DNA of 38,071 nt from an uncultured Acidimicrobiaceae bacterium (GTDB lineage Bacteria > Actinomycetota > Acidimicrobiia > Spongiisociales > UBA5794): NCBI GenBank assembly GCA_947258985.1, contig CAMYKI010000036.1, positions 1 through 38,071 of the forward strand. Direction: 5' to 3'. This document shows positions 5,156 to 26,898 of the stretch, piece by piece; position 1 is the stretch's first letter, and the number at the start of each line of letters is the position of its first letter. The position numbers and the translations under genes are program-made. The notes under the pieces were generated by a model, which was not told the origin of the DNA, did no database searches, and saw only the letters and a list, made by a program, of their open reading frames with translations.

Positions 5156-6376
5156 CTACCGGCCCGAAATCCCGTCGTAGAGCTCGAGTAGGCGAGAAAC
5201 GGTGGCTTCCCATGAGAACCGTTTGGCGTTCTTCAAGGCGCCCCTGCGGAGCAGCTCCGCAAGCTGGGGATCGTGCAGGATGGCGTCGATTGCGGCGGCA
5301 TAGTCATTTGGGTCATGTCCGGTGACGAGCAGTCCCGACTTTCCATCCTCGATGATGTAGGGGAGACCACCGACGTTGGATGCGATAACCGGGGCCCCAC
5401 ACGATTGCGCCTCGGCAGCCACGAGCCCGAACGTCTCGGAGCGCGACGGCATGATCACGATGTCTGCGGCCCGGTAGAACGATGCGAGCTGTTCGTGGGG
5501 TACGGGTGAAACGAAGTGCACCCGGTCGACGATTTCCAGATGCGCAGCCAATTGACGCAGTCTGATGACTTCGGCCTCTCCGCTACTCCCGCTTGGTCCA
5601 CCGATGATGACCAGCTGCGCCGGCGAAGCGGATGGGCGAAGACGGGCCAGCGCCTCGATTGCGGTGTCTATGCCCTTGAGGGGTTGGATACGGCCGACAA
5701 AGAGGATGACCGGGCCCTCGCCCAGCCCGGTCCATCGTCTTGCCTCGATCCGGTCGCCCGGCCCGAAGATGTCGTGGCGAATGCCGGGCGGCGAAGTGCA
5801 CAGCGCGGCCGGATCGGCGGAGTAATGCTCGAGAAGATCCTCGAATTCGTACGGTGTGGATGCGACGACACAATCGCTACGCGCAATCACCTCTTCCTCG
5901 GTGAGAGTGCGAATCACGCCTTCTGAAGCAGTCTCAGGGTGACGAGTGAGGTCCTTGACCCGTCCGAGGGTGTGGAACGAGTTCGCCAGAGGGACGTTCA
6001 GCTTCTCCTTGAGGAGGACACCCGACCATCCCGACAGCCAGTAGTGGCTGTGGATCAGATCCGGGCGATGATCGTTTTGGTCTATCCAGGCCAGGGTGGA
6101 CTCCGTGAACTCGCCGACGAGACCGGGAAGGTCTCGTACCGGGAGCGGTTCCGGCGGCCCCGCTTCGACATGGACGACGCGGAAACTGGAACTCACCTCG
6201 ACGACCTCTGGGGTGAACTCGTCTGTGCGTCGGGTGAACACCGAGACGTCGACACCGCGAGCGGCCATTGCCAGGCCTAGTTCCTTTATGTAGACGTTCA
6301 TGCCGCCGGCGTCGCCGCTCCCTGGTTGCATGAGAGGGCAGCTGTGCAACGACAAATAGGCAACACGGGCGATCAT
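5156..6376 (-). CDS. GT4 glycosyltransferase, MshA-like
   Basis: This 406-residue GT-B glycosyltransferase of family 4 closely follows the MshA pattern. It has a start with HSCPLMQPGSGDAGGMNVY (residues 11-29), HSHYWLSG, and the donor-site motif SETFGLVAAE with the E-x7-E arrangement, then GAPVIAS. MshA transfers GlcNAc from UDP-GlcNAc to inositol 3-phosphate as the first step of mycothiol synthesis. Related GT4 enzymes instead make sucrose phosphate or glycolipids, and no mshB, mshC or mshD is nearby, so the exact acceptor is uncertain. It is the last gene of a five-gene minus-strand operon, and its ATG overlaps the upstream stop in ATGA. Confidence 0.82.
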   Translation of the reverse strand: MIARVAYLSLHSCPLMQPGSGDAGGMNVYIKELGLAMAARGVDVSVFTRRTDEFTPEVVEVSSSFRVVHVEAGPPEPLPVRDLPGLVGEFTESTLAWIDQNDHRPDLIHSHYWLSGWSGVLLKEKLNVPLANSFHTLGRVKDLTRHPETASEGVIRTLTEEEVIARSDCVVASTPYEFEDLLEHYSADPAALCTSPPGIRHDIFGPGDRIEARRWTGLGEGPVILFVGRIQPLKGIDTAIEALARLRPSASPAQLVIIGGPSGSSGEAEVIRLRQLAAHLEIVDRVHFVSPVPHEQLASFYRAADIVIMPSRSETFGLVAAEAQSCGAPVIASNVGGLPYIIEDGKSGLLVTGHDPNDYAAAIDAILHDPQLAELLRRGALKNAKRFSWEATVSRLLELYDGISGR

Positions 6377-7290
6377 GGCGTCGTCCCCGTGGTGGCGGTG
6401 ACCTCGTAGAGGGGTCGTGCCCGTGCCCCGAGTTTGAACTTGTAGGTCTCAGCGCCTTTGAGGAAGTCGAACAGGGTGCGCTCGGCGGCGATTGCCGTTT
6501 CGATCAGATGTGACAACACGACGTTGCCGGGGGAGAGGTGGCCAATGTCGGGTTCGAATGCGCTGTTGTATAGGTAGGAGGCCTTCTCATCTTCGAAAAA
6601 GAACACGGCGGCCGCCGGTAGGCCTGCACCGTCGACCAACACGTCGATCAAGCCACCTGCATTGGTGTGCAGGGCAAGGAAGAAACGCTCCATGTCGGAA
6701 GACATGAACGCACCCTTGTCGCCGGCCGAGCGGCGATGCAGGTCGGCAAAGAGGGCAACGGCTTCCGGCCCCTCCTGTCGGACCAGCGTTGCCTGCCCGC
6801 GCTCGTTGTCGAAGCGGCGTCGCTTCCTGCGCATCTCATGGCGCTCCTTCTTGCTGATGGCTGCCAGATACCCGTCGAAGCTGTCGGGGAGATCGAGTAC
6901 CGCGGCGACCTCGTGCTGGCGGACTGTTGGGGAGAGCCCGGCGTCGACAAGCGCGCCGGCAACCGCAACGGATGCTGCGGCCGGGAGGCTGTCCAGCCGG
7001 AAGCTGAACCCGTTCGGCAGGCCAGCGACCAGATCGACCAGGGCCGCAACCGACGCTGTTCCGAGAGGGGAGTGGTAGTCGGTCAGGTCCGCCTCGCCGG
7101 CGAATTCGATGACGGAGTCGTCGATCGTTAACACGGCAAGGCTGTCTCCCGATTCAGCGATCAGAAGGTCGCCGTGACCTCGTTGCTCCCACCAGGTCCG
7201 CAGCCAATCCCGCCCGGGAAACGGACCGACGAATTCGGCCACTGCGGGCATACCGAACGCCGCCGTCTGCCAATCCTGGTGGGTGGCCAT
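6373..7290 (-). CDS. GNAT-fold (BioF2/FemAB-like) acyltransferase
   Basis: This protein of about 305 residues has the BioF2-like GNAT layout: a divergent N-terminal half, then ISKKERHEMRRKRRRF, a basic segment characteristic of this family, and a C-terminal GNAT half with AAVFFFEDEKASYLYNSAF, LSPGNVVLSHLIE and FDFLKGAETYKFKLG. The last motif is typical of the BioF2-like/CelD group. Members transfer acyl or aminoacyl groups, often in envelope polysaccharide synthesis. I chose ATG at 7290 because it follows the asparaginase stop as TGAAATG; starts at 7305 and 7344 are in frame but overlap that gene. It shares an ATGA overlap with the glycosyltransferase, so the two may act on one product. Confidence 0.75.
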   Translation of the reverse strand: MATHQDWQTAAFGMPAVAEFVGPFPGRDWLRTWWEQRGHGDLLIAESGDSLAVLTIDDSVIEFAGEADLTDYHSPLGTASVAALVDLVAGLPNGFSFRLDSLPAAASVAVAGALVDAGLSPTVRQHEVAAVLDLPDSFDGYLAAISKKERHEMRRKRRRFDNERGQATLVRQEGPEAVALFADLHRRSAGDKGAFMSSDMERFFLALHTNAGGLIDVLVDGAGLPAAAVFFFEDEKASYLYNSAFEPDIGHLSPGNVVLSHLIETAIAAERTLFDFLKGAETYKFKLGARARPLYEVTATTGTTP

Positions 7291-7291
7291 T

Positions 7292-8233
7292 TCAGGTACC
7301 GCCATCGGCGATCGGCGAAATCGTGCCGACTTGGCGGCCCCCACCGAGGACCGGTATCCGTCTCACATCCTCGAGGGCCTCCACGGCCGCCTGCGGAAGG
7401 AGACCAAGTCGGATGGCCGCTTCGGCAAGAGCGGCCACAGCAATGGGCATGGCTCCCTCGTGGCTCTTGGCGGCTATGCCGAGACCATTGCGACCGGCGG
7501 CGACCAGACCTTGAGCCCCCACCTTCACCGGTCCTCCCCACCAGGCTGCGAACTGCCCGTCCGGCAGCGTGTTGCTGGCGATCAAGCCGGGGAAGCGGTG
7601 GCTGGCCAGGCGCGTTTGTTCGAAGCGGGCGTCCACCGAAAGCGTCCCGAACGCCCTGGCCAATCCGCCAAGGTTGCCCCGCAGTGTCGGCGCCCCGCAA
7701 CCGTCGACTCCCACCGGCTCGGGATGGGCTCCTGTGACCTCTTCGATCAGCGAGAGCACGCGCACCTGGATGGGGTGGGACCGGTCGAGGTATGTGGCTG
7801 TTGGCCAGCCGTGGGCGGCGCATGCTGCGAGCCAACCACTGTGCTTGCCCGAGCAGTTGTGGAACAACCTCTTCATATGACGATGCCCTGCCGCGATCAA
7901 CAGATCTTTCGCTCCGGGATCGCGAGGCCATGCCGCGGGACACTGCAGAGCGCCGGCGTCGAGTCCGGCCCGCCTCAGTATCGATTCGACGAGACTGAGA
8001 TGGATCGGGTAGCCGCCGTGGCTTGCACAGGTGACGGCGATCTCTTCCGGTGACAGATCAGCACCGCTTTCGAGCGTGACGGTCGCCTGGAAGGGCTTTA
8101 TTGCCGACCGGTAGTAGAAGGGGACGTCAGGGTCGCCCCAAATGGCCATGGTTTGGCCTGCAGCGTCGGTGGCGACGACAGATACGTCGTGCGTGGCTTC
8201 TACTTCGCCCGAGCGGACGGTAGCGAGGCGCAC
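7292..8233 (-). CDS. L-asparaginase II family protein
   Basis: This 313-residue protein matches the asparaginase II (AnsA-like, PF06089) family. Motifs are RSAIKPFQ (residues 42-49), ASHGG (70-74), NCSGKH (126-131) and DGCGAP (177-182), all hallmarks of this group. It probably hydrolyses L-asparagine to aspartate and ammonia in the cytoplasm; no signal peptide is seen. The start is GTG at 8233, overlapping the upstream gene's TAG by one base (TAGTG), so translation is likely coupled. The length matches the family. Confidence 0.85.
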   Translation of the reverse strand: MRLATVRSGEVEATHDVSVVATDAAGQTMAIWGDPDVPFYYRSAIKPFQATVTLESGADLSPEEIAVTCASHGGYPIHLSLVESILRRAGLDAGALQCPAAWPRDPGAKDLLIAAGHRHMKRLFHNCSGKHSGWLAACAAHGWPTATYLDRSHPIQVRVLSLIEEVTGAHPEPVGVDGCGAPTLRGNLGGLARAFGTLSVDARFEQTRLASHRFPGLIASNTLPDGQFAAWWGGPVKVGAQGLVAAGRNGLGIAAKSHEGAMPIAVAALAEAAIRLGLLPQAAVEALEDVRRIPVLGGGRQVGTISPIADGGT

Positions 8234-8631
8234 TAGTCGCCGAGAAGCTCGTTGACCGACGTCAGGCCGTCGCGATACCGCCTGGCAACCTCGTCGGTCA
8301 GTGTCTCCAGGGCTTCGTAAACCGAGCGGCGCTGCGTCGAGACCCGCTGTTCCGCGTCGGAGAGCATCTCTTGGATCGACAGCAGCTCGGCGTCCTCGAT
8401 GTCGGGGAGATGGGTGAGGAAATCGTCCGCAAGGACCCGGTCGATCGAACGTCTTCCATCGATCGGGACATCTGGTGGTTCAACGGGAAGCGTCTTCGGC
8501 ACCAGATAGTGAGACGGAGCGTCTGCAGAGCCGTCGGCAAGGATGTCGGGAAGGGCTTCGATGAGCGAACGGGTCTCCTCGCCGCTGCGTCGGCGTAGCT
8601 CGAACGAGAGAAGATCCATCCGGCCGTGCAA
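8233..8631 (-). CDS. RsiG-like c-di-GMP-responsive anti-sigma family protein
   Basis: The protein is a long helical hairpin resembling actinobacterial RsiG, which binds c-di-GMP and holds the sigma factor WhiG. RsiG uses E-x3-S-x2-R-x3-Q-x3-D motifs. Here the first helix has D-x3-S-x2-R-x3-H-x3-D (DAELSYYRRLLHGRMD) and the second has E-x3-S-x2-R-x3-Y-x3-E (EQRVSTQRRSVYEALE). The only ATG, GTG or TTG start in frame upstream is TTG at 8631, which cuts the first motif in half. The frame stays open upstream and reads like the family (ILDPDFTAAVNEIPLDELR) to at least 8760, so coding almost certainly begins between there and about 8840. Whether it binds c-di-GMP is unknown, since key residues differ. 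Confidence 0.7.
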   Translation of the reverse strand: MHGRMDLLSFELRRRSGEETRSLIEALPDILADGSADAPSHYLVPKTLPVEPPDVPIDGRRSIDRVLADDFLTHLPDIEDAELLSIQEMLSDAEQRVSTQRRSVYEALETLTDEVARRYRDGLTSVNELLGD

Positions 8632-8839
8632 CAGCCGTCGGTAATAGGACAGTTCCGCGTCCAGGTCTTCGCAGATCCCGCGTCTCTTGCGAAGCTCGTC
8701 GAGAGGAATCTCGTTGACGGCTGCGGTGAAATCGGGATCCAGGATCTGGTCGATGCGCCTGCGATGCTGCTTCAGGGTCTGCCCCTTCCAAGTGTCACTA
8801 TCAGGGTCCAGAGAGTACCAGTCCGAGACGTCAAGACCC

Positions 8840-9922
8840 TCAACACGCCGCGGCGAGCGTCGGATAGGGATTGACCGCGCTGCCGTGGCCGGGGTGAATC
8901 TGGAAGTGGAGGTGATGGGCCCCGCCGTATGCGTTGCCGGTGTTGCCGTTGTAGCCGATGACGGTTCCCCGGGTAACGAACGATCCCGCGGTTAGGCCCG
9001 CAGCCCGGCTGTCGAGGTGGGCGTAGTAGTAGCTGGCGCCGCTTCCCTTCAGCCAGATGGCGATACCGCCCAATCCGCCGCTGCTAAATCGGAGAGTGCC
9101 GTCCGTGACCGCGACGATGGGCACGCCCTTGTCCGCCATCATGTCGGTCCCTTTGTGGGTGCGCCCGCCGGATCGCGGATTGCCCCAGTCGTTTGTGAAG
9201 TGGACGGGGCCGGCGACCGGGCAGATGAAATCGGGGATGGTTCCGGGCGGTAGACCCCCGGCTGCGCCGCTCTTTTTGGCCGCCTCGGCGATCTTGCGGG
9301 CACGTTCAGCGGCTTCCCAGGCGCGGACCTCCGCGGCGTAATTGCTCCTGGCCTCCTCGTATATGGCGGTGCGTTCTGCGCGCAGCTCGTCGAGATCGGC
9401 GACCATTGCCGCCTGTTGCTGCTCGAGCTCGGCGACACGCTGGCGGTCCTGCTCCAACGTCGCCGTCTTGCGAATCAGGTCCCGGGTGATGGCGTCGAGC
9501 CGGTCGAGGGTGGCCGTACCCTTGTCCGCGGCCCGCCCGATGAGGTGTTGCGCCGTCAGGATGTCTTGGATGTTGGCGGCGTCGAGCGCCGACTCGAGGC
9601 TGCTGGAACCGCTGTTGATGTAGGCGTTGGTGACGAGGTCCTGGGCGGCATTGCGCAAACCGGAGAGGCTGTCTTCGTCCTCGTCGATGCGGCCTTCCAT
9701 ACGTCCGATGCGGTACTCGAGATCCTCGAGCTCGGCGTGGAGATTCACGAACACGACAAGTGCGGCCTCGAGCTCGGCGTCGGCCTGCTTGAGGGCATCG
9801 AAGGCGTTGTCCTTCTCCTCCTTGGCTTCCTCGATCGCGTCAGTTTGAGCCAGGGCTCCAGCCGGAACCAGCCCGAACAGCGCAATAAGAAGGATTGGAA
9901 GTAACGCGCGAGAACGTCGCAT
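8840..9922 (-). CDS. Secreted M23 (LytM) peptidase with coiled coil
   Basis: It starts with a signal peptide (MRRSRALLPILLIALFGLV, cleavage near AGALAQ). A roughly 180-residue coiled-coil region rich in Glu, Ala and Leu follows, then a Gly-rich linker and a C-terminal LytM domain. The zinc-site motifs are THKGTDMM (H-x3-D) and HHLHF (H-x-H), both intact. Such proteins cleave peptidoglycan cross-links or, when degenerate, activate amidases at division; here the site looks competent. ATG at 9922 is chosen because it directly precedes the signal peptide, with GGA 5 nt upstream; in-frame starts at 9931, 9946 and 9979 also exist. It heads the minus-strand operon and is divergent from crcB. Confidence 0.85.
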   Translation of the reverse strand: MRRSRALLPILLIALFGLVPAGALAQTDAIEEAKEEKDNAFDALKQADAELEAALVVFVNLHAELEDLEYRIGRMEGRIDEDEDSLSGLRNAAQDLVTNAYINSGSSSLESALDAANIQDILTAQHLIGRAADKGTATLDRLDAITRDLIRKTATLEQDRQRVAELEQQQAAMVADLDELRAERTAIYEEARSNYAAEVRAWEAAERARKIAEAAKKSGAAGGLPPGTIPDFICPVAGPVHFTNDWGNPRSGGRTHKGTDMMADKGVPIVAVTDGTLRFSSGGLGGIAIWLKGSGASYYYAHLDSRAAGLTAGSFVTRGTVIGYNGNTGNAYGGAHHLHFQIHPGHGSAVNPYPTLAAAC

Positions 9923-9996
9923 ATATTCCATGATCGGTTGGAGCATAGTGGCGACTTGAGTCCTATCCCACATTGCCAAGGCCTATCCTCCCGTCC

Positions 9997-10368
9997 GTGA
10001 TCAAGCAAGTCTTGTGGGTTGGCGCCGGTGGCGCAGTCGGAAGCGCCCTGCGCTACGTCGTCTGGCGAGCAATGGGCACGTCCGGCGGGTTCCCGTGGGC
10101 AACCGTTTTCGTCAATGTGACCGGCAGTTTTGTCCTGGGTCTGCTCGCCGGTCTCTATGCCGGCCGGGTGAGCCCGACCATGCGGTTGGCCGTCTTCTTC
10201 GGGTTGCTCGGCGGATACACCACCTTCTCCACGTTCACTGCCGAATCAATCGTGCTGGCGCGCACCGGCTCGACCGTCGCCGCTTTTGGGAACGTTGCCA
10301 TTTCTCTGCTCGCCGGCGTGACGGCAGCGTTTGCCGGAGTGATTCTCGGGGAGTCACTCGGCAGCTAG
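9997..10368 (+). CDS. crcB: CrcB/Fluc fluoride channel
   Basis: This protein of 123 residues has four hydrophobic helices and the Fluc signatures GGAVGSALRY near the N terminus, FVNVTGSFVLG and GLLGGYTTFSTFT. Fluc proteins form dual-topology dimers that let fluoride leave the cell. I chose GTG at 9997, which gives the usual short N terminus (VIKQVLWVGAGG); an upstream ATG at 9973 would overlap the long form of the divergent M23 gene. It is a single gene copy, so a homodimer is expected, unless a second copy lies outside the window. No fluoride riboswitch was recognised in the short upstream gap. The next gene converges on it after 37 nt. Confidence 0.88.
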   Translation: MIKQVLWVGAGGAVGSALRYVVWRAMGTSGGFPWATVFVNVTGSFVLGLLAGLYAGRVSPTMRLAVFFGLLGGYTTFSTFTAESIVLARTGSTVAAFGNVAISLLAGVTAAFAGVILGESLGS

Positions 10369-10405
10369 GTTTCGGCTTCTCCGCCGGTGGCGGCCTGCCG
10401 GTTGC

Positions 10406-11398
10406 CTAGGCGAACACCCATATGGCAGCCCAAAAGGCGGCGACGCCGAGGACGGCGCCGTCGAATGGGGTGAGAAGCCCCGGGGCGCGTGCGGTGTGTA
10501 CGACCGACCCCGTCCTGAGCAGCGACCCGAAGGCGCGGCCCGCGATCAAGCCGGCGGCGCTTGCGGCTGAAGCAAGAACCATTGTCGTGATGGCGAGAGT
10601 CTCAGCGGCGAGGCCGCTGATCAACCCGGCAATCACCGCACCGAGCACCATTCCGAGGTTGGGGTCCAAACCGCCCACCTCGCCTCCCGATTGCTGAACA
10701 CCCCAGGCGGCAAACCCGGCGGCCGCTGCTACCGCGATAGCGGCGTTGACCATCGGCACTGAGAACAGGTGGAGAAGGGTGAGGCTGCCGGTCGCTAAAC
10801 CGGCGAGAATCGCCAGGGTCATGGCTATCGAAAGCCCGCGAGTCGTACGTTGCTCGGGGTCGAGAACACTCCAGACAAGAGTGAACAGGATGGCCATGGC
10901 CATCCCTCCGGCGAATCCTTCGATGCCCCAACGGTACGAACCGTTGGCAACGGCCGTTGCCCCCACCATCAGCGGGGCAGGGTTGATCCGGGCGCCGCGA
11001 ATCCTGAGCACGTCGGTGGTATCCCACAACCATGCGAGGGCGGTACCGACCACCACAAAGATGAAGATGGCACTGTCGTCGAGGAGATTGGAGATGACGA
11101 GAGCGGCGAGAAGCGCTACCACGAGGAGTGCCCCGGAGCCCTCGGATACTCTGGTAGCCAAGGCTCCTCCGGAGACCGGGGGAATCAGAGCAATCTCGTC
11201 GGTGACGCCGACGGCGTCGGCCATATCGGCGGGTTCCCCGTTGACCCAGACCTTGGCCACACTGAGCCCGCGGCCGAAGTCTTTGCCGTATGCCTCGGTT
11301 GCCGCGTCGAGGACCTCGGCGACCGTGGATCCATCAAAGTCGGCCTGGCTGGTTCCAGCAGATTCCCTGAGGTTGGCAAAAAGGCGCAGCCTTGCCAT
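10406..11398 (-). CDS. MoaD/ThiS-like domain fused to CdsA-like membrane domain
   Basis: Residues 1-78 look like a complete MoaD/ThiS ubiquitin-like domain: FANLRESAG near the start, KVWVNGEPAD at about 49-58, and DEIALIPPVSGG ending in the diagnostic Gly77-Gly78. Instead of stopping there, the frame continues for 252 residues through 8-9 membrane helices. The last of these (GLLTPFDGAVLGVAAFW, about 307-323) resembles the C-terminal end of CdsA-type phosphatidate cytidylyltransferases, though the acidic pair is reduced to one Asp. In ordinary MoaD and ThiS the C-terminal Gly-Gly must be free to be adenylated and thiocarboxylated. The fused protein would need cleavage, or the domain may be only regulatory. 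Both domain assignments are from motif reading. Confidence 0.65.
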   Translation of the reverse strand: MARLRLFANLRESAGTSQADFDGSTVAEVLDAATEAYGKDFGRGLSVAKVWVNGEPADMADAVGVTDEIALIPPVSGGALATRVSEGSGALLVVALLAALVISNLLDDSAIFIFVVVGTALAWLWDTTDVLRIRGARINPAPLMVGATAVANGSYRWGIEGFAGGMAMAILFTLVWSVLDPEQRTTRGLSIAMTLAILAGLATGSLTLLHLFSVPMVNAAIAVAAAAGFAAWGVQQSGGEVGGLDPNLGMVLGAVIAGLISGLAAETLAITTMVLASAASAAGLIAGRAFGSLLRTGSVVHTARAPGLLTPFDGAVLGVAAFWAAIWVFA

Positions 11399-11513
11399 CA
11401 GCTGCTCGCCCTTGATCTGTTGATCGTCTCCACGGCCAGCAGCGTAGTCGCCGCAGGGAGCATGACTGATGACGGACCGGCCGCTCCTTGACGCGCTTCG
11501 AACCGTCGCTGAG

Positions 11514-12317
11514 TTAGCTGGCGACCGACGTGTTGTGCAGCCGGTCCACCAACTCAGCCTGTGAGTGCACTCCGAGCTTGCGGAAGATCGACTTCAGATG
11601 GTTGCGCACTGTGTGCTCGCTCACCTCGAGGATCTCGGCAATCGAGACCACACGATGGCCCTGCAACAGGTGTGTCACGACATCGCGTTCCCGGCGTGAG
11701 AGCAATTCGAGGTCCGGGTGAGTGGGAGCCGGTTCCGTGCTTGTACCCGAGGAAGCCAATCCGACCCTGCCCAGCTCGTCTGAGATGCGGCGCATGGCGT
11801 CTTCGAGTTCCCGTCGACGCGGATCCTGAATGACCCGCACTTCACCGGGAGCCGGACTGAAGATCCAGAGGAGAGCGGCGGACGGGCCGACTCCGTTGTG
11901 CATCGGGATGATCTTGGTCTGTGTGGGAATCGGCGTGCCGTCGAGGCTCATCAGGTTCCACTCGACCGTCTGCGGGCGGCGCGGAATGCGACCGTTGAGC
12001 GAGCGAGTGATGAAGCGGCGATATTCGCTTTGGTGCGGAAGGCTGATCCAACCAGGTGCTTCCTCATTCATGGCCGGGTCACATGCCTTGATCCCGACGA
12101 GATTGTCGAGAGACGGATTGGAGTACGTACATCTGCCGGTCTCGTCGGTGATAAGTACTCCGTCGCTCATGGCCTCGAGTAGCTCTTGAAGCGGTACCAC
12201 CACAGTGCCGGTCCCATTGCGTGCGGTCATGACACCCACCCGTTGTCGTGCTTGCGAATTGAATGCATCAGCTTTGCCCCCTGCCCTTTTCCGTTCTGGC
12301 CCTGTTGCGGCTGCCAT
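11514..12317 (-). CDS. PAS-domain LuxR-type transcriptional regulator
   Basis: The N-terminal part (about residues 40-155) reads as a PAS sensor: LLEAMSDGVLITDETGRC, YSNPSLDNLVG and VEWNLMSLDGTPIPTQTKI. A GerE/LuxR helix-turn-helix follows at about 206-262 (LSRRERDVVTHLLQG, VSIAEILEVSEHTVRNHLKS, FRKLGVHSQAELV). It has no receiver domain, so it probably senses a ligand, redox state or partner directly. ATG at 12317 gives the longest form; ATG at 12230, just before the PAS domain, is equally plausible, since neither has a strong ribosome-binding site. The 36-bp tandem array lies upstream of its start and could be its operator region. Confidence 0.82.
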   Translation of the reverse strand: MAAATGPERKRAGGKADAFNSQARQRVGVMTARNGTGTVVVPLQELLEAMSDGVLITDETGRCTYSNPSLDNLVGIKACDPAMNEEAPGWISLPHQSEYRRFITRSLNGRIPRRPQTVEWNLMSLDGTPIPTQTKIIPMHNGVGPSAALLWIFSPAPGEVRVIQDPRRRELEDAMRRISDELGRVGLASSGTSTEPAPTHPDLELLSRRERDVVTHLLQGHRVVSIAEILEVSEHTVRNHLKSIFRKLGVHSQAELVDRLHNTSVAS

Positions 12318-12446
12318 TCCTGGCCGGCTACCCCAACGATTCGACAGTAATTCGCAATGTCGATGGCCGGTAGGAGGGTTTCTGCTGACTCAGCATGGAC
12401 TAGTCATTTTTAGCGGTTGCCCGGATACCCAGAGTGGCGGTCTCCT

Positions 12447-12613
12447 GACGGCTGTGAACCCTGGGTTGGTAGCCCCGGATTTGACGGCTGTGAACCCTGG
12501 GTTGGTAGCCCCGGATCTGACGGCTGTGAACCCTGGGTTGGTAGCCCCGGATCTGACGGCTGTGAACCCTGGGTTGGTAGCCCCGGATCTGACGGCGGTG
12601 AACCCTGGGTTGG
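12447..12613. repeat. 36-bp tandem repeat array, 4.6 copies
   Basis: Units begin GACGGCTGTG at 12447, 12483, 12519, 12555 and 12591, the last cut after about 23 bp. They differ at only two positions. Each unit contains AACCCTGGGTT, an 11-bp palindrome around one central base, and GTAGCCCCGG. The array starts 4 bp beyond the ABC-transporter stop and ends 130 bp from the regulator's longest start. It has no unique spacers, so it is not a CRISPR array. A multi-copy protein-binding site or a slippage-prone minisatellite are the options. Confidence 0.92.
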
Positions 12614-12617
12614 CGTT

Positions 12618-14417
12618 CTAGGGGGCGAGCTGGCGGCCGTACAGGTCCGCATACAGGCCGTTCCCGTCAAGGAGGTCGGCGTGGGTGCCTTCCTCGACTA
12701 TGTGCCCCCCGGCCAGCACGATCAGCCGGTCGGCCTTGCGCACCGTGCTGAGACGGTGGGCGATGACGATCGTCGTTCTACCCTCCATCAGGCTCTCGAG
12801 CGCCGCCTGCACCTGGGACTCCGATTCTGCGTCGAGGGAGCTCGTCGCCTCGTCGAGAATCAGGATCGACGGGTCGGCGAGAAGCGCCCGGGCTATCGCC
12901 ACCCGTTGCCGCTGACCGCCGGAGAGTTTGATCCCCCGTTCGCCGACAATCGTTCCATAGCCCTCGGGAAACCCGGTGATGAAGTCATGGGCGTTGGCAG
13001 CCTGACAAGCTGCCACGAGTTCTTCGTCGGGTGCGCCGGGGCGGGCAACCCGAAGGTTCTCGGCGACGGTTCCGGAGAACAGCTCGACTTCCTGGGGAAC
13101 GGCAGCCATCCGAGCCCGCAGTTCTCTGATGCCTTGCTCCTTCACATCGGTGCCGTCTACGAGGAGCCGACCCTCCGTGACGTCGTAGAAGCGGGGAATC
13201 AGCTGGACGAGTGTGGTCTTTCCCGCCCCCGAGGGACCGACCAGCGCCACCATCTCCCCGGAGCCGACCTCGAGATTGATGCCGCTCAGGACCTCTTCTT
13301 CCCTGTCGGCGTATGTGAAACTGACGTTTTCGAAGCGTACGGTTCCGGCGGAATCAGGATTGGTGGTGGCGGCAACGCCGGCATCTTCAGGTTGCTCATC
13401 GAGCAGCTCGAAGATGCGGCGCGACGCACCCAGCGCCTCCTGGAGCTGTGCATACAGGCCGGTGAAGGTTCCGATGGCACCGGCGACCGTCAGCGTATAG
13501 AGGAGAAACGTCACAAGGTTGCCCGCGGTCAGGTCACCGGAAACGACGAGTCGTCCGCCCTGCCATAGGACGAGCGCCAGGGTGCTGAACATGGTGAAGG
13601 TCACGGCGGGCACGAAGATCGCTCGGAGTCTGGCCCGGCGCACGGCGACTTCATAGGAGGCCCGGATATCCTGATCGTAGAGTCGGGCGGTTTCCTCCTC
13701 AGCGGTGAACCACTTCACCACCCGAACTGAGGCGATGGCTTCTTCGGCGAGGCTGTTGGCGTCGGCGAGCTTGTCCTGGAAATCCGTTGACACCTTGCGG
13801 AGGCGTCTTCCGAAAAACGCGGCAGCGATGATCACGATCGGCAAGAACGTGAGAACCGTTAGCGACAGTCGCGGGCTGAGGAGTAGTAGCAAAATGATGC
13901 TGCCGATCAGGGTGATGCCTTGCGAGAGCGCTTGGGCTACGGCGGTGGAAACAGTTGCCTGGACGACGGCAGCATCCGCGGTGAGGCGCGATGTGATCTC
14001 GCCGGTCTTGCGCCTGTCGAAGAACGGCACGCTCAACTTCACGACACGCTCGAAGACGGCGCGCCTGAGATCGGCGACCACCCCTTCTCCCGCAATCGCC
14101 AGCCAGTAGGAGCGGAGGAAGTTGAACCCCGCTTGGGCGAGGAAGACCACGACAAGGATCACGGCGAACCTGTCGAGCTGGCTGGTGTCCTCGCTGCCGA
14201 CCTCTCCCAGAGCAGAGTCGACGAGATCGCCCATGATCCGGGGAAAGACCAGTCCCAGCCCGCTGGCGAAGGCAACGGCGATCGTTGCCGCGATGATTCG
14301 GCTGCGATAGGGGCGGGCGAAGGTGAAGAGTCGCCGCAGCTGGGCCAACTGCGCGACCCTCAGGCGGGGCGTGGTTCCTTCCTCTCGCGCTCTAGGCGCT
14401 CTTCGCATTGGCCGCAT
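12618..14417 (-). CDS. ABC exporter, fused membrane and ATPase domains
   Basis: This 599-residue half-transporter has a six-helix membrane domain (about residues 30-320) followed by a nucleotide-binding domain from about 350. The ATPase motifs are all intact: Walker A GPSGAGKTT, signature LSGGQRQRVAIARALL, Walker B ILILDEATSSLD and switch His in VIAHRLSTV. It matches the MsbA/LmrA-type exporters that work as dimers on lipids or hydrophobic compounds. No partner half-transporter adjoins it, so a homodimer is likely. The short basic N terminus has a second ATG at 14408. Its 3' end runs straight into the 36-bp repeat array. A 46-bp palindrome lies just upstream of its start. Confidence 0.9.
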   Translation of the reverse strand: MRPMRRAPRAREEGTTPRLRVAQLAQLRRLFTFARPYRSRIIAATIAVAFASGLGLVFPRIMGDLVDSALGEVGSEDTSQLDRFAVILVVVFLAQAGFNFLRSYWLAIAGEGVVADLRRAVFERVVKLSVPFFDRRKTGEITSRLTADAAVVQATVSTAVAQALSQGITLIGSIILLLLLSPRLSLTVLTFLPIVIIAAAFFGRRLRKVSTDFQDKLADANSLAEEAIASVRVVKWFTAEEETARLYDQDIRASYEVAVRRARLRAIFVPAVTFTMFSTLALVLWQGGRLVVSGDLTAGNLVTFLLYTLTVAGAIGTFTGLYAQLQEALGASRRIFELLDEQPEDAGVAATTNPDSAGTVRFENVSFTYADREEEVLSGINLEVGSGEMVALVGPSGAGKTTLVQLIPRFYDVTEGRLLVDGTDVKEQGIRELRARMAAVPQEVELFSGTVAENLRVARPGAPDEELVAACQAANAHDFITGFPEGYGTIVGERGIKLSGGQRQRVAIARALLADPSILILDEATSSLDAESESQVQAALESLMEGRTTIVIAHRLSTVRKADRLIVLAGGHIVEEGTHADLLDGNGLYADLYGRQLAP

Positions 14418-26008: not shown

Positions 26009-26898
26009 GATGGCCCCTGCGGATACGCGATCGTCTTGACCTGCGCCCGTGGTGTTTCGAGGACGTTGCCGGTGTCGATGATCAGGTTGCCCTGGGCGTC
26101 TTCCTCTAGAGCGAATCGGTCGAGGTTACGCGGCGCCGGCCCGGAGTCGTATTCGCCGTGGAAGTTGTACTTCGAGCCGTGGCACGGGCACTCAAATCCC
26201 TGAGAGGAGGCACACTCCGGCACCCGGCAGCCGAGGTGAACACACTTCTGCCAAAGGGCCATCAAACCCGAGTCGCCACCGTCGGCTCCGGCGACTGCGG
26301 GGATGCCCTCAAACGAGCTGCCGGGGATCGATGAGCCCTCCATCGGTACCAGCCAGGCTTGGGCTTCCGGGAAAAAGAGAGGCTTGATGGTGCCGTCGCC
26401 GGGTACCACCTCCGCGCGCAGCGCGGCGAGAGGGCCGGCGTTGATCTTGCTTCCGAAACCGCCCCTCAGCTTCGGCCAGAAGAACGCAAGCATGCTGATG
26501 CCGAGGGTGCCGAGGAAGCCTCCTCCGAAGAGCCCGAGAGCGGCACGGTTGAGGAACATGCGGCGGGTCACGCCGAGGTCCTCCTCCGATATCGCCTCGC
26601 GGTCGTCCTCGATGGCGGCAGGAACGGGCAACTCCTCTTCCCCGTCGGCGTCAACGGCGGGTACAACCTCGGCCTCGGGCTTTAGAGACGTCTGCTCGGG
26701 CTTCCGAGACGTCTGCTCGGGCTTCCGAGACGTCTGCTCGGGCTTCCGGGACATGTCCCGTTTGGCGGCGGCCTTGTCGAAATCGCCGACGATGGGGCCG
26801 GCGCTCGGACCCCGTTTCCACGCAACAGCAAACACGCCGGCGGCGACGAGAATCCCCGCACCGATGATGGCAGTTACGAATATGGCAGTTGCGCTCAT
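25999..26898 (-). CDS. Rieske [2Fe-2S] protein
   Basis: This 299-residue protein has an N-terminal helix (1-27), a charged linker with three copies of the heptapeptide SRKPEQT (50-76), a second helix preceded by twin arginines (TRRMFLNR, 111-118) and a C-terminal Rieske domain. The cluster ligands are in CVHLGC (219-224) and CPCHGS (237-242). Extra Cys residues at 229 and near the C terminus could form disulfides. It carries electrons from quinol at cytochrome b to the cytochrome c subunit. The two-helix, long N-terminal form recalls actinobacterial QcrA, which has three helices. It sits between the subunit-IV-like and diheme cytochrome genes. Confidence 0.92.
   Translation of the reverse strand: MSATAIFVTAIIGAGILVAAGVFAVAWKRGPSAGPIVGDFDKAAAKRDMSRKPEQTSRKPEQTSRKPEQTSLKPEAEVVPAVDADGEEELPVPAAIEDDREAISEEDLGVTRRMFLNRAALGLFGGGFLGTLGISMLAFFWPKLRGGFGSKINAGPLAALRAEVVPGDGTIKPLFFPEAQAWLVPMEGSSIPGSSFEGIPAVAGADGGDSGLMALWQKCVHLGCRVPECASSQGFECPCHGSKYNFHGEYDSGPAPRNLDRFALEEDAQGNLIIDTGNVLETPRAQVKTIAYPQGPSCL

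Follow-up and report, generated by a model that had tools for sequence, protein, structure and literature searches.

The gene at 10406..11398 on the minus strand of the window, the whole stretch of 38,071 nucleotides analysed here, encodes a protein of 330 residues (the interval includes the stop codon) in which a MoaD/ThiS-type ubiquitin-like (Ubl) domain is followed by a membrane domain with the fold of CdsA. On balance, the gene probably encodes a membrane-tethered MoaD precursor, which would be cut after Gly78, thiocarboxylated and used by MoaE. That the fusion is real is a matter of near certainty. It is an ATG-started open frame with full-length orthologues, which in five named Acidimicrobiia MAGs are 73–81% identical to it over the full length.

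The protein can be divided into two parts. The Ubl domain comprises residues 1–78 (11165..11398, minus strand) and ends in PPVSGG, as the original prediction had it. Residues 5–78 match the Pfam ThiS family PF02597 with an E-value of 2e-9, a match that passes the curated cut-off. When the Ubl was compared to the PDB by sequence, the best match was SAMP1 (E 5.5e-7), and Foldseek, applied to the structure model, matched the front half to structures of SAMP1 and MoaD. The score of the domain against the NCBIfam moaD equivalog is 38.6 bits, which is below the cut-off of 66.15, and the name MoaD therefore rests on context.

The second part spans residues 79–330 (10409..11164, minus strand) and consists of an unconserved linker (residues 79–85, 11144..11164, minus strand) and the membrane domain. 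This domain is polytopic with eight predicted helices, one of which is about 40 residues long and probably makes two membrane passes. No convincing Pfam or NCBIfam model matched these 252 residues, and the Pfam search gave no match of PF01148 (CdsA) to the fused protein. The AlphaFold2 model, which was built with 87 relatives, has a mean pLDDT of 93.9 and falls below 50 at residues 78–80 only, that is, at the joint. In this model the back half finds the Thermotoga CDP-DAG synthetase 4q2g (TmCdsA) with a Foldseek probability of 1.00 and an E-value of 9.5e-3. A domain search of both halves thus places a MoaD/ThiS-type Ubl in front and a CdsA fold behind. Loop charges, when counted, are consistent with a Ubl on the cytoplasmic side, but some loops break the rule.

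The codons of Gly77 and Gly78 lie at 11165..11170 on the minus strand, and a putative processing site follows Gly78. Across 87 aligned proteins, P73, P74, V75, G77 and G78 are invariant and S76 varies once. Mean pairwise identity is 84% over residues 67–78 and 14% over residues 79–90, and in 79 of the 87, Gly78 is directly followed by Ala, Ser or Thr. The codons used for the two glycines are varied across the 87 genes and therefore, the constraint acts on the protein. Conservation that ends at Gly-Gly is the pattern that would be expected of a processing site, and a joint kept this strictly suggests a carrier that is cut free before use. Loss of the Gly-Gly in homologues, which was named beforehand as an observation that would speak against such a carrier, was seen in none of the aligned proteins. 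The fusion is retained as well; it is an old one and is fixed within one order of the Acidimicrobiia, a class of actinobacteria. In that order, the membrane half is present in 126 of 138 genomes, nearly always as a single copy, and 93 of the 95 loci that were read contain a full-length fusion in one frame. Of the two exceptions, one ORF is truncated where its contig ends and the other gene is split over two frames.

Other orders of the class encode this Ubl as a free protein of approximately 78–86 residues that ends in PPVSGG. When 37 of these proteins were read, 17 were found to stop exactly at Gly-Gly, while 20 extend by one to eight unconserved residues. The tailed copies suggest that free forms, too, are trimmed after Gly-Gly. 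Tails past the Gly-Gly on free MoaD orthologues include ST, YA, AVGVR and CGPTAGAR, and the tailed loci are L171, L173–L176, L178–L180, L184, L186, L188–L191, L193, L196, L198, L199, L207 and L212.

Some two dozen genomes have a separate CdsA-like gene just downstream of the free MoaD, and in genomes of family f18 this gene overlaps the MoaD stop codon. In a tree of the membrane domain, which has long branches and whose deeper joins are to be read with caution, the fused order (support 99) is opposite the unfused family (support 92), and true CdsA is apart from both. Three fusions are nested in the unfused family and need at least two further fusion events. Ubl–CdsA-like fusions from outside the order are L195, which has a long Arg/Pro-rich linker, and L200 and L203, which have short ones. 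When an alignment of the unfused CdsA-like proteins was compared to 396 genomes of the phylum, clear members were found within the class only; the leftover weak matches, with E-values of 1e-12 to 1e-8, include the true CdsA of the window's own genome.

The genes around the fusion are also partly conserved. Downstream of it on the minus strand is a cluster (5156–9979) that is found at around one half to three quarters of the order's loci and contains genes for an MshA-like GT4 glycosyltransferase (5156..6376; PF00534/PF13579; 37 loci), a GNAT protein, a member of the L-asparaginase II family (7292..8233; PF06089; 32 loci), an RsiG-like protein (8233..8631; PF22802; 28 loci) and an M23 peptidase with a coiled coil (8840..9979; PF01551), which is the neighbour of the fusion gene at 43 of some 60 loci. 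By eye, an RsiG-like ORF downstream of the free MoaD and an MshA-like gene near it can be found in other orders. A CrcB-like gene (9973–10368, plus strand) lies just past the downstream end of the fusion gene, in the opposite orientation. The window also holds two tandem repeats: one that separates the genes for a LuxR/PAS regulator from those for an ABC transporter (12445–12613; a 36-base unit, 4.7 copies, 97% matches), and one at 26674–26752 (a 21-base unit, 3.8 copies, 94% matches). No Rfam family was found within 9900–12700, and tblastn gave no plasmid match.

Putative partners of the Ubl are encoded elsewhere in the window's genome. These are one separate MoaE (G000:C7), in which the conserved lysine region is present, one rhodanese-ThiF E1, and one Prok-JAB (JAMM) protein (G000:C25, at about 58932–59426) with the motif E..HSHP..S..D intact. 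Two points weigh against the model. The rhodanese domain is at the N-terminus of this E1, whereas in MoeZR it is at the C-terminus, and both the E1 and the JAMM protein are encoded on contigs other than that of the fusion. Consequently, the linkage to a MoeB/ThiF-type enzyme that the original prediction had proposed to look for did not materialize: the enzyme is in the genome, unlinked to the fusion gene.

No further ThiS-family domain was found in this genome, even at E ≤ 10. The assembly is a draft of 150 contigs that is 92.9% complete, so that on this genome alone a missed free MoaD is possible. In a census done as a hand count over 69 sampled genomes, the fused domain is the sole ThiS-family match in 27, and 21 of those are at least 90% complete; G037 is assembled as one contig. 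MoaE is present in 24 of the 27, an E1 over the cut-off in 24 and a JAMM protein in 25. The E1 and JAMM genes are adjacent in seven (loci L217, L218, L219 and L221–L224). Among genomes outside the order, 166 have both MoaE and a Ubl of this family, 12 the Ubl only, 9 MoaE only and 70 neither. These counts are uncorrected for phylogeny and are due in part to reduced genomes lacking both. In this context, it is highly likely that the Ubl acts as MoaD.

A different use for the released Ubl, that is, CysO-type cysteine synthesis, tRNA thiolation or SAMP-like conjugation, instead of MoaE or besides it, is unlikely and is still the best of the alternatives. SAMP1 is the nearest PDB sequence, and both CysO adducts and SAMP conjugates are substrates of JAMM proteins. 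In addition, MoaE was undetected in a few well-complete genomes that bear the fusion (G091 and G111), of which G111 has the fusion, the E1 and an adjacent JAMM gene; a second role of the Ubl is therefore possible. Against such a use as the main one, the rhodanese on the E1 fits sulfur transfer better than conjugation, and the co-occurrence with MoaE outside the order is strong.

Somewhat less probable is that the Ubl stays attached and has a docking or regulatory role in the membrane protein, like the YukD-type Ubl in actinobacterial EccD, for which we know of no role as a sulfur carrier. The arrangement has a precedent, as YukD-like Ubl domains joined to 12 membrane helices are known (PMC1779556), and the membrane half keeps invariant residues of its own (W123, D126, G287 and G307). 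Docking, however, needs neither an invariant Gly-Gly nor an unconserved linker behind it, the free orthologues end at Gly-Gly, and an attached Ubl would leave the MoaE of the window's genome with no alternative ThiS domain to serve it. EccD, which shares with the protein described here a Ubl ahead of a polytopic membrane domain (PMC1779556), differs in both the Ubl family and the membrane fold.

The membrane half was originally described as CdsA-like and this description holds. In addition to the match to 4q2g, true CdsA reached 96% and the unfused family 94% in profile–profile comparison, and hhalign controls with reversed or shuffled profiles gave less than 1%, which rejects a chance likeness between membrane families. 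The unfused CdsA-like partner also folds as CdsA (4q2e, TM 0.70, probability 1.00). The signature of CDP-DAG synthases, S-x-x-K-R-x4-K-D ... PGHGG ... D-R-x-D, is a different matter. The S..KR....KD and PGHGG elements are absent from all 87 fused and all 29 unfused relatives, but are found in all 30 true CdsA proteins of the same order, 29 of which have the full signature. A separate gene for true CdsA was found in 67 of the 69 sampled genomes. As the signature is absent and the separate gene is present, the membrane half is not classed as a CDP-DAG synthase, and it can be said with considerable confidence from its sequence that it is not one. It is probably a non-catalytic partner.

The second alternative of the original prediction, that of a Ubl regulating a lipid enzyme, is weakened by the same findings. 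The membrane half could be an active cytidylyl- or lipid-transferring enzyme that is controlled or supplied by the Ubl, and both its CdsA fold and the conserved polar residues R184, D245, R295 and D313, all located in predicted cytoplasmic loops, would suit that role. With the signature missing from fused and unfused relatives alike, retained in true CdsA, and a separate CdsA gene in nearly every genome sampled, an active CdsA is rejected, and an enzyme of this kind is very improbable.

The Gly-Gly codons could also have a role in translation, acting as a ribosome-binding site for an internal restart that gives a separate membrane protein. This was considered for the window's GGAGGAGCCTTG, where the codons TCC GGA GGA GCC TTG resemble a ribosome-binding site before TTG, and the separate genes of family f18 do overlap, at TGATG. 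The variety of the glycine codons led to its rejection. In addition, 52 of the 87 genes are without a start codon in the next five codons, and the Gly-Gly end would stay unfreed, which leaves an internal start with hardly any probability. Finally, that an assembly error or a frameshift joined two genes is practically negligible: the separate-gene relatives that had been proposed as a sign of this do exist in other orders, but as an ancestral-type arrangement that shows no sign of an artefact, and the same fusion recurs throughout the order in more than 90 independent assemblies, including the single-contig genome G037.

The membrane-tethered sulfur carrier released by cleavage, the first alternative of the original prediction, is the better supported of its two because the Gly-Gly is invariant and the constraint on the sequence stops there, because free orthologues elsewhere in the class end in GG, and because MoaE, E1 and JAMM are present while another ThiS-family domain is absent. 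Cleavage itself is what we infer from these sequence patterns, and release of the Ubl by this means is likely. The proposed pathway begins with a Ubl–membrane polypeptide that would be made as a precursor, with the Ubl on the cytoplasmic side. A protease would then cut after Gly78, and the genome's own JAMM (Prok-JAB) protein is the likeliest candidate, an assignment towards which we lean slightly. The rhodanese-ThiF E1 would act on the freed carboxyl end by adenylation and thiocarboxylation, and the resulting MoaD-COSH would form molybdopterin synthase with MoaE.

In this pathway, the CdsA-like half would be a partner of MoaD that functions as an anchor, a reservoir or a gate on release. We infer this partnership because the pair recurs as neighbouring genes and has been fused more than once, and the job of this half is the weakest step of the model. 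A tentative extension is that a pseudoenzyme holds the MoaD precursor at the membrane and that release by JAMM sets the amount of active molybdopterin synthase, perhaps in response to a bound lipid or nucleotide. The CdsA-fold protein would then be a dedicated MoaD partner across a bacterial class.

Several known systems resemble parts of this model. In eukaryotic ubiquitin–ribosomal protein fusions, a Ubl precedes an unrelated protein and is cut off after Gly-Gly, although there the partner is soluble and the processing enzymes are eukaryotic. Another parallel is MoaX of M. tuberculosis, which is cut between Gly82 and Ser83, a cut needed for activity, by a protease that was not identified in that paper (PMC4326299). 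Both proteins have an N-terminal MoaD-type domain with an internal Gly-Gly at the junction, and Ser83 of MoaX corresponds to the Ala, Ser or Thr that usually follows Gly78. The partner in MoaX is MoaE, whereas here it is a CdsA-fold membrane protein and cleavage is putative. In Deinococcus radiodurans, DRJAMM cuts a MoaD-MoaE fusion and frees the C-terminal Gly (PMC8832034). The window's genome likewise holds a JAMM protein with an intact motif; the fusion partner is a different one. Cutting of ThiS or MoaD fusions by JAB proteins was proposed by Iyer and colleagues in 2006 (PMC1779556). CdsA itself (PF01148; 4q2e/4q2g) shares its fold and a remote sequence homology with the membrane half, minus the synthase signature. 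Among the open-access papers searched, none was found that connects MoaD to phosphatidate cytidylyltransferase or to Acidimicrobiia. Within that scope, a processed MoaD fusion is already known and the CdsA-fold membrane partner appears to be new.

If the model is right, MoaD also exists in a membrane-tethered form, and the synthesis of the molybdenum cofactor is linked to a membrane protein. The set of Ubl precursor, E1 and JAMM protease would resemble a minimal ubiquitin-type system with a single substrate, and would offer a natural setting in which to test whether a sulfur carrier must be released by proteolysis. It would also provide the first lead on the CdsA-like family, for which the searches here yielded no named function.
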